This document shows, in pieces, positions 5,452-38,499 of a DNA stretch of 64,000 bases. The stretch is from Pirellulales bacterium (GTDB lineage: Bacteria > Planctomycetota > Planctomycetia > Pirellulales > Lacipirellulaceae). The stretch spans positions 33,871 to 97,870 of the forward strand of contig JAKVCB010000004.1 of NCBI GenBank assembly GCA_022448345.1, given 5' to 3'. Below the pieces are notes generated by a model that was not told the DNA's origin, ran no database searches, and was given only the letters and a program-made list of their open reading frames with translations. How positions within the stretch are numbered: position 1 is the first letter of the stretch; each line of letters starts with the position of its first letter. A program made the position numbers and the translations under genes.

Positions 5452-6447
5452 ATGTACAAAATGACAATCGCCTTCTTTATAGCATGTGCTTCCACAACAT
5501 GGCTTGCTTTTGGGGCAGAACCTACGGATGCCCCTACTTACACTGATCCAAACGATGTCGATGCTGACTTTGCTATCCAAGGAGAATACCGTGGTGAGAT
5601 CCCAACCGAATTTGGCCCCGAGATGTGGGGCATCCAGGTCGTCGCCCTGGGCCAAGGAAAATTCATGGCAACCGGCTACCGGGGTGGCTTGCCAGGAGAT
5701 GGAGGAACCAAACGAGAGGAAACTCGAGCCTACGGTGATCGCAAGGGGAATGTTGTTGAACTGCTCGCAGAAGATGTTGCGACGCTCGTCATTGCAGATG
5801 GGAAAATGAAGGTTTTTTCTCCTGATGGTGATGAGGAATATGGCACGCTGAAACGTGTTCACCGGAAAAGTCCAACACTGGGTGCCAAGCCTCCCGAGGG
5901 CGCGATCGTACTATTCGACGGAAACTCGCTGGACTATTGGGATGGCAATACGAGCAAAACAGATGATGGACTTTTGACCGAAGGCAGTACCAGTACAAAA
6001 AAGGGGCGCAGCTACAAAGCTCATGTCGAATTTCGGCTGCCATACATGCCCGAGTCGCGCGGCCAGGCCCGCGGCAACAGTGGGTTTTATGTGCAAGGGA
6101 GGTATGAAATACAAATGCTGGATTCGTTTGGGTTGGATGGGGAATCGAATGAGTGTGGAGGTGCCTATGGAGCTGCGCCACCCAATCTGAACATGTGCTT
6201 TCCCCCGCTGTCGTGGCAAACTTATGACGTCGACTTCACCGCACCTGAATTTAAAAATGGCAAAAAGATCAAGAATGCCCGACTAACGGTGCGGCACAAC
6301 GGCGTTGTTATTCATGATGACCGAGAACTTTCCAGCCACACGCCAGGAGGCGTCGACGAAGAAAGTGCCGACCCTGGCGTGCTGATGTTTTTGCAGAATC
6401 ACTCCAACCCAGTCCGGTACCGCAATATCTGGGTTGTTGAGCAATAA
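5452..6447 (+). CDS. Secreted DUF1080 family protein
   Basis: Signal peptide MYKMTIAFFIACASTTWLAFGAEP; IVLFDGNSLDYWDG...ARGNSGFYVQGRYEIQMLDSFG; ORF opens at 5437. Confidence 0.82.
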   Translation: MYKMTIAFFIACASTTWLAFGAEPTDAPTYTDPNDVDADFAIQGEYRGEIPTEFGPEMWGIQVVALGQGKFMATGYRGGLPGDGGTKREETRAYGDRKGNVVELLAEDVATLVIADGKMKVFSPDGDEEYGTLKRVHRKSPTLGAKPPEGAIVLFDGNSLDYWDGNTSKTDDGLLTEGSTSTKKGRSYKAHVEFRLPYMPESRGQARGNSGFYVQGRYEIQMLDSFGLDGESNECGGAYGAAPPNLNMCFPPLSWQTYDVDFTAPEFKNGKKIKNARLTVRHNGVVIHDDRELSSHTPGGVDEESADPGVLMFLQNHSNPVRYRNIWVVEQ

Positions 6448-6613
6448 GACTGGCACGGCGCACCATAGCCATAATTTGTCTGCAAAGTCACCTTGCCAGG
6501 GATCTCCTGTTTCATTTTTACATCAGCACTTTAAGCGACAGTCGCATGAAGCGTGCCTAATGCTCAATGTCATCCCGAGAATAGGGGAGTTTATAACTAC
6601 AGGAAACAGGTAA

Positions 6614-7042
6614 TTATGTGGAGCAATCGTTGCAATGGCCGCGAAGCAGGACTTCGGTGACCTCGCCAATTGTATTGCTCATCCGTTCGATATAAGCGGT
6701 CAATTTTTTTTGGTCCACACATGACACGTGGCCACAATCAATACACACGAAGTGTGGATGACTTGAGCTGTCATGACCGTCATCTTTAATCGCTTCAAAT
6801 CGCCAAACATGATCACCCAATTCGGCGCGTCGAAGTAACCCAGCTCCCACCAAATCATTCAAGTTTCGAAACACCGTTGCCTTATCGACTCCACGTCCAT
6901 CCAATTCCGCCGATACTTCAGCATGGGTCAACGGGGTGGGTGACTCCATCAACAGCTCAAGCGTTGCAATTCTTGCGGGGGTCGCGCGCAAACCTGATTC
7001 CCGAATCGAAACCTTGATGGATGATGGCTTCCTGTCTTTCAT
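6614..7042 (-). CDS. Fur-family transcriptional regulator (Fur/Zur/PerR type)
   Basis: GLRATPARIATLELLMESPTPLTHAEVSAELDGRGVDKATVFRNLNDLVGAGLL...HPHFVCIDCGHVSCVD: Fur winged helix and metal-binding CxxC. Confidence 0.88.
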   Translation of the reverse strand: MKDRKPSSIKVSIRESGLRATPARIATLELLMESPTPLTHAEVSAELDGRGVDKATVFRNLNDLVGAGLLRRAELGDHVWRFEAIKDDGHDSSSHPHFVCIDCGHVSCVDQKKLTAYIERMSNTIGEVTEVLLRGHCNDCST

Positions 7043-7219
7043 GGCGAGAACCTGCAGTTGTATAAACCGTTGTCTGCGTTTGCTACCGGCTTACCATTTT
7101 ATCAATTGTCCGAAGATCCGTCACTCTTTGTCTGAATGGGTGGGCTGGAACCACAAGAATGACTCCGAACAAAATTGAATGGACCGAATTTGAATCTGCT
7201 GAAAAAGGAACAACCTCCA

Positions 7220-7289
7220 TATGCAGCTATATTGCATTCAATTTTCTTGCATAACACCTATTTGCATACCACTTGCATTTGCATATAAT
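7220..7289 (+). promoter_or_regulatory. Cluster of five TTGCAT direct repeats overlapping a candidate sigma70-like promoter
   Basis: TTGCAT at 7232, 7247, 7262, 7273, 7279; ATGCA(7221)-N7-TGCAT(7233-7237) inverted pair; TTGCAT(7262-7267)-16 bp-TATAAT(7284-7289). Confidence 0.5.
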
Positions 7290-7552
7290 GTTCACTTTAG
7301 CCCCGAAAGATAGTTGGCTTGTCAATCCGTTTCGCAGGTTGGTCAAACGGCAGCATGGAATTCATACAGCAACCTCCAGAAGAGTTGGCCGACGTCCCGT
7401 CTCAAACCGATACTCGCAAACGATCGACTCAAAGGGTTAGAGCCACTAGCATTCGACTTCGTTTTCGGTTTTTGAGTACCAAACAATCTTGCCAGAATAT
7501 TGTTGGCAACTGGGGGCTGTATTCTTCACCTAGCGAAAACAAACGGGAAATG

Positions 7553-7732
7553 CATATGTCTAGACTTATGGAAATTCGTCTGGAAACAGAAAAAGCACTG
7601 CCACTGGAATCGTTAGGCGTCATGTGGGATCACATTCGTTCACGCCTTGAAGTCAAAGACGCATTTTTGTCGGTTCAATTCCGACGGTCTGTCGAAAAAC
7701 ACGCCAACCTCCGGCTTGCCGTGGCAACCTGA
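7553..7732 (+). CDS. Possible small protein of unknown function (dubious ORF)
   Basis: MHMSRLMEIRLETEKALPLESLGVMWDHIRSRLEVKDAFLSVQFRRSVEKHANLRLAVAT within the longer 7319-7732 ORF; no recognised family. Confidence 0.25.
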   Translation, partial: HMSRLMEIRLETEKALPLESLGVMWDHIRSRLEVKDAFLSVQFRRSVEKHANLRLAVAT

Positions 7733-7841
7733 TATCAACGTTTTCGTTGAAGGCTATTGCAGATACCCCACATGAGGCCGACAAAAGAATTTCATGGTTT
7801 CGACGTTTAACAGAAACCCTGGGAATCCCTCAAGGAAAAAC

Positions 7842-8477
7842 ATGGACGCGATTGAAATTGGAGTTTCAAAGCTGAATCTATTGGTGCCTGGAAACTCAAC
7901 TTGGAGAGACTGGCTTGGTATCGTAGCGTCTGTTGGATGCGCTATTCACTGTGCAGCAATGCCCTTTGTCATTGCTTATTTGCCTGCTTTGGGATTGAGC
8001 TTCCTCGCAGACGAATCATTTCACCGATGGATGGCATTGACCTGCTTTTTTATTGCTCTTATCGCCTTTATACCAGGCCTATTAAAACATGGTAGCTGGA
8101 TCCCGGTTTCGGCCGGTGTCGTAGGGCTGGTGCTCATTACAGTTGCGGCATTTGGTTTGACAGGTGATTGCTGCCCTTCGTGCGTTGGCGAAACAATAAT
8201 ATCTGCCGGGCCAGAAACAGAACCCGCATGCTGTGAAACCAAGTGTGAACATTGTGAAACAACGCAACCCAGCGCTGATGCAGAAGACACCTATATGTCA
8301 GTTGAAACATCAACTTTAGAATCAGGAAGTTGGCTGACTCAATTTGCTCCCTGGATTACTCCGATTGGCGGTGTACTGTTGGTCGCGGCACATCTGCTGA
8401 ACCGCAGATATGGGTGTTTGTGCAAGTGCTGTGAATCCAGGCCGATTGCAATCTCTGAAGCAAAGAGTATCCGCTAG
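7842..8477 (+). CDS. MerC-domain membrane protein with Cys-rich segments
   Basis: WRDWLGIVASVGCAIHCAAMPFVIAYLPALGLSFLADESFHRWMAL typical of MerC; CCPSC, CCETKCEHC and CLCKCC clusters. ORF opens at 7794. Confidence 0.78.
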   Translation: MDAIEIGVSKLNLLVPGNSTWRDWLGIVASVGCAIHCAAMPFVIAYLPALGLSFLADESFHRWMALTCFFIALIAFIPGLLKHGSWIPVSAGVVGLVLITVAAFGLTGDCCPSCVGETIISAGPETEPACCETKCEHCETTQPSADAEDTYMSVETSTLESGSWLTQFAPWITPIGGVLLVAAHLLNRRYGCLCKCCESRPIAISEAKSIR

Positions 8478-9427
8478 GAATCTCCGATTGAAGTTGTCTG
8501 CGTATTGCCAACGCGACGCTTGCGGCTCACGTAACGACGAATAATCGGTGCCGCACACAGGAACAGGGACATCCCGCCATAGAAAAGTGCAGCATAAAGT
8601 ACTCCCTCGCGTACTCCCTTACCAATTTCATCAAGCATGACACCGGCTGGCCAGATTGCTGCTTTTAAGAGAAGTGCCACGTTGCAGTTGCGCATTGTGA
8701 TCTCAATACCCACTGTGTACGCGTCGTCTTCCTTGAAACCGAGCAAAAAGGCCAGAATTTGCACCGGCCCAAGCAGGATGGCACCAAATAAAAGTAGCAC
8801 AAAAGGAACCTTGAAGCCGTGCTCAAAAACATCAATCTGTCCGCTAAACAAGGAACCGATGACGAGAATCGAGAGGAACAACAGGCACGCCCGGATGGAC
8901 CACTTTGACACGATGTGACGTACATCACGCCAGACATTTCCGATCACCATGCCCGTTGCCAGCGGGACAAGTAAACAAAAAATGATTTCCTGCAGAATGC
9001 GAACCACGGGCATTTGAAAATCGCCTGGCAATCCGGGAGGCTTCAGCAAATGGAGAATCGCAGGTGTAAGCACCAAACATGCCAAGGTCGAGGCAGTAGT
9101 CGCTGTAATCGAAAGCGGCACATTACCTCGTCCCAAATAAGTGTAAATATTCGACATCGCGCCACTGGGCATGGCCGAAACCACCAACAGCCCCAGTGTC
9201 ATGCCAGCCGACAAACCAAATAGTCTGGCCAGTCCAAGCGCTAAAAATGGACAAATCAAGTACTGGAAGATGAAAACGAAGACTACGCCCTGTGGACGAC
9301 GCAAGATGTCACGGAAATCGAGCAAGGTGAGCGTGGCACCCATTCCGAGCATCGCGAAGATGAGTTGCGCTGCCGCAACCCAGTATTCCCAGAAGTTCCA
9401 AGTGAGCAACATAGTCATAGGCGGCAA
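8474..9427 (-). CDS. Bile acid:sodium symporter (BASS) family transporter
   Basis: LGMGATLTLLDFRDILRRPQGVVFVFIFQYLICPFLALGLARLFGLSAGMTLGLLVVSAMPSGAMSNIYTYLGRGNVPLSITATTASTLACLVLTP. Confidence 0.87.
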   Translation of the reverse strand: MPPMTMLLTWNFWEYWVAAAQLIFAMLGMGATLTLLDFRDILRRPQGVVFVFIFQYLICPFLALGLARLFGLSAGMTLGLLVVSAMPSGAMSNIYTYLGRGNVPLSITATTASTLACLVLTPAILHLLKPPGLPGDFQMPVVRILQEIIFCLLVPLATGMVIGNVWRDVRHIVSKWSIRACLLFLSILVIGSLFSGQIDVFEHGFKVPFVLLLFGAILLGPVQILAFLLGFKEDDAYTVGIEITMRNCNVALLLKAAIWPAGVMLDEIGKGVREGVLYAALFYGGMSLFLCAAPIIRRYVSRKRRVGNTQTTSIGDS

Positions 9428-38163: not shown

Positions 38164-38499
38164 TTAGAACAACTCGATCCTGTGCTCTGAATCAAGCGTT
38201 ACAATCGCCTTCTTCCAAGTATTGGTATAGCCGTAGACCATTTTGGTTTTACGTGGCTTGCCCTTGCGGTTTTGAGTGCGGACCTTCACCACCTTGACCT
38301 CAAAAAGCTGTTCCACCGCCCGCCGAACATCAGCCTTATTGGCTTGCCGATTGATCTGAAATGCATAAGCATTGCAACGACTCGAACGGTGCATGCCCTT
38401 TTCAGTAATCAGCGGTCGCAATATGACCTGGTGTGGCTCAAGTTCGAGCTTCGATTTAACAACCGGTTCTTTCGTCTTTGTTCGTCGGGGCATCATCAT
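38164..38499 (-). CDS. rplW: 50S ribosomal protein L23
   Basis: [59 protein letters not shown]. Confidence 0.97.

Follow-up and report, generated by a model that had tools for sequence, protein, structure and literature searches.

What is a dense cluster of TTGCAT repeats doing between a gene for a Fur-family regulator and a gene for a MerC-like membrane protein? The question is raised by a 64,000-nucleotide stretch of DNA from a Pirellulales bacterium, the whole of which is here termed the window. The hexamer occurs on the forward strand at 7232, 7247, 7262, 7273 and 7279 (spanning 7232-7284), and the last two copies form a perfect tandem pair, TTGCATTTGCAT, at 7273-7284. These five copies had been predicted at exactly these positions and lie far beyond chance: five within 53 bp were found in none of 300 first-order Markov simulations of 64 kb (maximum three, once) and 5000 simulated versions of the 276-bp intergenic region contained no such cluster either (maximum three, twice). 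An inverted pair that formed part of the same prediction is likewise present, with ATGCA at 7221-7225 matched by TGCAT at 7233-7237. The core shared by the whole array is TGCA, which occurs six times (7222, 7233, 7248, 7263, 7274 and 7280) at spacings of 11, 15, 15, 11 and 6 bp, and six copies within 62 bp were absent from all simulations, both of the 64 kb and of the intergenic region. TTGCAT is not enriched across the window as a whole (33 copies versus 47 expected), hence it is the cluster itself that constitutes the signal. The genome search for TTGCAT clusters proposed at the outset yielded one further TTGCAT-N9-TTGCAT, which lies inside a coding gene and has been taken as chance. No Rfam match to a structured RNA was found in 6400-8700 at E values up to 0.1.

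Fur-family orthologues were compared using 80 loci, mostly from Pirellulaceae and other Planctomycetota (Rhodopirellula, Rubripirellula, Mariniblastus and Stieleria); individual loci are given L numbers below. TGCA spacings were counted over 450 bp of upstream sequence for each of the 33 closest orthologues, with the expectation taken from the rest of the same loci: pairs at 11 bp were seen 27 times versus 1.6 expected, pairs at 17 bp 18 times versus 0.6 and pairs at 6 bp 11 times versus 1.0, whilst most other spacings were near background. The repeats are therefore conserved, conservation in relatives having been set beforehand as one half of the test by which the original prediction could be refuted. 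A matrix built from 34 sites in relatives describes a symmetric box of 27 bp, roughly YGCA-N2-TGCAA-N5-TTGCA-N2-TGCR, with A after the left core and T before the right core. What underlies the array is an inverted repeat of the form TGCAA-N5-TTGCA, in many cases accompanied by outer TGCA half-sites, and this, together with the symmetric flanking bases, overturns the direct-repeat architecture that had been proposed. TGCA is its own reverse complement, so that inverted copies are indistinguishable from direct ones, and in the window the flanks have drifted to T-TGCA-T, which produces the TTGCAT appearance. A true direct-repeat operator of contiguous hexamers would have a precedent in the three TGCATC repeats bound by Bradyrhizobium japonicum Fur (cited in PMC3037356), and the tandem pair at the end of the array would suit it; it is nevertheless improbable, and was rejected on the spacing and symmetry of the relatives, where the dominant spacing is 11 bp rather than 6 bp and the flanks are symmetric about the dyad centre. 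The hexamers are not contiguous at 6 bp either in the window (11, 15, 15, 11, 6) or in relatives (11, 17, 6), and with spacings of 15 and 11 bp consecutive repeats do not keep to a 6-bp register. When the more distant orthologues (L100-L146) were searched for dyads, no clear alternative to the box emerged, and some of these loci carry the TGCA box. The pattern TGCA-N7-TGCA-N2-TGCA was also sought over 148 genomes, where many matches are coding or due to chance and a reversed control matches too, so this noisy pattern was used solely to pick candidates.

The window was scanned with a position weight matrix (PWM) trained on relatives' sites only, with no window site included, and the array is predicted to be one strong box (C) with two weaker boxes (A and D) and a doubtful fourth (B; Table 1). 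Box C leads the next-best 27-mer of the 64-kb scan by 13 bits; this runner-up (38356-38382, 11.8 bits) lies in a ribosomal protein operon and is probably there by chance. The centre of box D is 17 bp from that of box C, which is a spacing enriched in relatives. The unpaired TGCA at 7248 falls within possible box B, and both this copy and the 15-bp spacings are poorly fitted by the geometry common in relatives. The TTGCAT-16-TATAAT promoter that had been proposed is found, with TATAAT starting 16 bp past the TTGCAT at 7262-7267; the promoter scan, which considers consensus only, prefers TTTGCA-17-TATAAT, and promoter-like sites overall in the region are no commoner than in shuffles. The candidate -35 and -10 lie within boxes C and D. 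The proposal that the Fur-family metalloregulator next door acts on a multi-site operator lying over a promoter thus gains support from the TGCA geometry kept in relatives.

Table 1. Predicted features of the locus, in window coordinates.
Feature	Positions	Strand	Score or match
Fur-family regulator, 142 aa, proposed Zur	6614..7042	-	Pfam FUR 1.1e-14, residues 15-123
Box A, TGCA(7222)-N7-TGCA(7233)	7216..7242		PWM 10.7, fourth-best 27-mer of 64 kb
Possible weak box B, TTCA(7237)-N7-TGCA(7248)	7231..7257		PWM 0.1 only; doubtful
Box C (main), TGCA(7263)-N7-TGCA(7274)-N2-TGCA(7280)	7257..7283		PWM 24.8 (bits), best of 64 kb
Box D, TGCA(7280)-N7-TTCA(7291), overlaps -10	7274..7300		PWM 8.1, sixth best of 64 kb
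Candidate promoter, -35 TTTGCA/TTGCAT 7261-7267, -10 TATAAT 7284-7289	7261..7289	+	10/12 consensus matches
folE2 (GTP cyclohydrolase IB) remnant	7319..7732	+	PF02649 6.4e-10, profile 1-108 of 260
merC-like Cys-rich membrane protein	7842..8477	+	PF03203 4.6e-22, profile 1-108 of 108

The gene context had been described as a Fur-family gene and a MerC gene with the array between them. Both genes are present, but MerC is the second gene downstream: a remnant of folE2, missed in that description, comes first, and this was the clue to zinc rather than iron. FolE2 and COG0523 proteins are standard Zur targets (PMC6103462, PMC2770081), and it was this piece of a classic Zur target beside the array that turned the analysis to zinc. 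The remnant has its likely start at ATG 7355 and keeps only residues about 13-120 of about 270 (37.6% identity over 13-120 by tblastn with the intact FolE2 of L071). The CPCS-bearing region is missing, so that the catalytic domain is incomplete, and short out-of-frame similarities beyond residue 120 suggest the remains of the rest of the gene. The locus L071 holds the intact order of box, folE2 and merC; in a Mariniblastus locus (L069:5152-5475) only folE2 residues 161-268 are found between box and merC; and in further loci merC comes straight after the box with nothing between. The decay is thus of opposite kinds, an N-terminal part being left in the window (7319-7803) and a C-terminal part in L069. 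This suggests that folE2 has been lost repeatedly whilst the operator was retained for merC. Nearly all of these genomes are metagenome assemblies, where an isolated break might be an artefact of assembly; that folE2 was lost in two different ways makes this less likely. The merC frame is open from 7794, with its likely start at ATG 7842 after AAGGAAAA, and the predicted protein (7842-8477) carries the complete Pfam MerC domain. A gene of the sodium/bile-acid symporter family (8474-9427, reverse strand) runs towards merC, and the ends of the two genes overlap by four bases.

The genes that stand behind the box in relatives point the same way. With the relatives' matrix, 60 sites score at least 15 in the 80 loci, of which 37 immediately precede a gene for MerC, ZIP, COG0523 or FolE2 and 29 precede the fur gene, counts that are not fully independent in that part of the training set had been picked beside zinc genes. 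A target-first test on MerC, which is not based on fur adjacency, was run for this reason: among 17 MerC genes found across the order, 8 carry an upstream box of at least 18.8 bits, versus a background of 9 in 1085 blocks scoring at least 18 (about 1e-12 by a simple binomial on these counts). Individual loci add further targets, with three boxes in L067 each before a different zinc gene, a box in L160 ahead of a ZnuABC/AztABC-like operon from which a COG0523 gene diverges, and one in L158 before a ZigA-like GTPase followed by HisI. Boxes also precede genes of the all3515 family, named Zur-repressed by NCBIfam, in L022, L164, L168 and L175. Only 3 of 15 such ZepA genes have a box immediately upstream; some of the remainder follow the fur gene closely and may be transcribed as part of its operon. 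The box-preceded set (MerC, ZIP, COG0523, FolE2, ZnuABC-like and ZepA) is, as annotated, a zinc-starvation regulon. This evidence comes from relatives, the window genome contributing only folE2'-merC: in its assembly (83% complete, 439 contigs) the strict box pattern occurs at 18 places versus 8 for the control, and the array is the only one both high-scoring and beside a zinc gene. With all the patterns tried, box C is the sole site of its kind found close to a zinc gene in this genome.

Several other genes lie beside boxes. Small Cys/His-rich proteins, probably secreted, are encoded directly behind a strong box (L070:283-693, L070:3000-3356, L072:1303-1680, L073:107-532, L131:6677-7114, L139:5928-6347 and L154:2597-3013) and are candidate new zinc-starvation proteins; three of them show weak, sub-threshold similarity to DUF2946. 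Prepilin peptidase-like and DUF1559 (prepilin-like) genes are found beside boxes at L079:2312-3766, L159:4291-5781 and L092:7919-8647. In L025, L080 and L113, ArsR/SmtB-type regulator genes adjoin genes for ZIP or Fur proteins, which suggests paired sensors of zinc uptake and excess.

The adjacent Fur-family protein is best read as a Zur, given that the boxes precede a predicted zinc-starvation regulon. Its membership of the Fur superfamily is indicated by a Pfam FUR domain and by a structural Cys4 zinc site of two CxxC motifs (C100, C103, C137 and C140), which is invariant in 24 relatives, as are the candidate metal ligands H40, E83, H95 and H97. Characterised Zurs have a cysteine in the regulatory metal site. 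The candidate site of this regulator (His/Glu/His/His) is unlike these in being free of cysteine, hence the residues alone do not name the metal and the assignment to zinc rests on the regulon; this would lower the claim to the classical Zur subfamily rather than the claim to function as a zinc regulator. No Zur model of NCBIfam matched the protein; the equivalogs listed in that collection are of Fur, PerR and Irr only, and all scored far below cut-off. Sequence matches in the PDB include Fur, PerR, Zur and Nur. The zur of the window is 71% identical to that of Pirellulaceae assemblies (L068) versus at most 50% to same-family genomes, and the locus from 6614 to 8477 as a whole resembles the former more than the latter. 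Contamination of the assembly as the source of the contig is unlikely, because its ilvB shares 81% identity with same-family genomes, and the mismatch between the two genes suggests transfer or a retained paralogue. A second Fur-family copy, 63% identical and broken by a contig end, is found in the same genome (L148:1-375, G000:C404).

Could the array instead be the operator of a Nur-like nickel regulator? The core and the 11-bp TGCA spacing are identical to the Nur consensus as quoted in PMC3919588. The genes behind the box are nonetheless zinc genes, with no sodF or nikABCDE homologue among the box-preceded genes examined; the M-site of Nur consists of four histidines (PMC7055735), whereas the equivalent set here holds the invariant Glu83; and in sequence the regulator matches another structure more closely than that of Nur (3eyy). 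Such a role is hence very unlikely. Equally, the array might serve another regulator, for example an ArsR/SmtB-type repressor, with the adjacency of the Fur gene being incidental, and the ArsR-family genes of the three loci named above would favour this; yet what the boxes have in common as a neighbour is the Fur gene, and no ArsR gene occurs in the listed neighbourhood of the array, which leaves little probability for this explanation. A functionless chance or low-complexity repeat, as might be imagined in an AT-rich region where promoter-like matches are no commoner than in shuffles, can be dismissed, since the cluster was never reached in simulations and its position and geometry are conserved.

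The array is most likely a multi-dyad operator of the Zur encoded by the divergent gene, controlling a folE2-merC promoter in response to zinc. What the sequence shows is the array, how far it exceeds chance, the conservation of the 11/17/6-bp geometry among relatives and the position of the array before zinc genes; from these we infer DNA binding, the identity of the metal as zinc, repression, the promoter and the transcription of merC together with folE2. When zinc is present, Zur dimers would bind the TGCA-N7-TGCA dyads A, C and D, and perhaps B, and since the -35 and -10 fall within C and D, Zur bound there would silence the folE2-merC promoter. When zinc is absent, Zur would leave and MerC would be made; FolE2 would have been the original first product of this transcript, now reduced to a decayed remnant. 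More speculatively, and on balance doubtfully, planctomycete Zur might read TGCA half-sites as modules, with dimers loading side by side into an extended repressor filament. The dimers would then be set in steps of 6, 11 or 17 bp, here also 15 bp, with one to several dyads per operator, and the operators would grade how early each zinc gene is released. Were this so, a Zur would be recognizing the sequence used by the nickel regulator Nur of Streptomyces.

The proposed box would fill a gap in the description of zinc regulation. A blind motif search published in 2024 covers Planctomycetota zepA neighbourhoods with a presumed zur and, in the available part of the report, gives motifs for zepA of cyanobacteria and proteobacteria and a single site from Verrucomicrobia, with none for Planctomycetota (PMC10957091); the Pirellulales would now have a Zur box. 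No published description of a planctomycete Zur box was found in the open-access papers searched. The zinc regulon of a large and abundant group of aquatic bacteria would become predictable from sequence, and the MerC-family proteins of the group would point to a role in zinc starvation rather than one concerning mercury.

Compared with known systems, the arrangement agrees with the zur-zepA neighbourhoods described in PMC10957091 in that a planctomycete Fur-family gene stands beside zepA and other zinc genes. The operators of Zur in other phyla are likewise inverted-repeat boxes over the -35/-10, the usual position of Zur boxes, of COG0523, FolE2, ZnuABC and ZIP genes, and more than one box per promoter occurs there too, promoters with two Zur boxes being known (PMC6103462). 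The boxes of those phyla are AT-rich, whereas the core here is TGCAA-N5-TTGCA, with outer TGCA half-sites at 6 bp, a 17-bp step between adjacent dyads, as many as four dyads in the window and MerC as a frequent target. At irr of B. japonicum, too, a Fur-family protein binds TGCATC-like hexamers (cited in PMC3037356), three direct hexamers there in contrast to inverted dyads at 11 bp here. The closest likeness in half-site and spacing is to the Nur box of Streptomyces coelicolor, tTGCaa-N5-ttGCAA, whose consensus, as quoted in PMC3919588, is without outer half-sites. The downstream genes differ from those of Nur, being zinc genes rather than sodF or nikABCDE, as do the metal-site residues (PMC7055735). 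A Fur-family regulator with a predicted zinc regulon on a nickel-box sequence would be a good case in which to study how metal specificity and DNA specificity change separately in this family.
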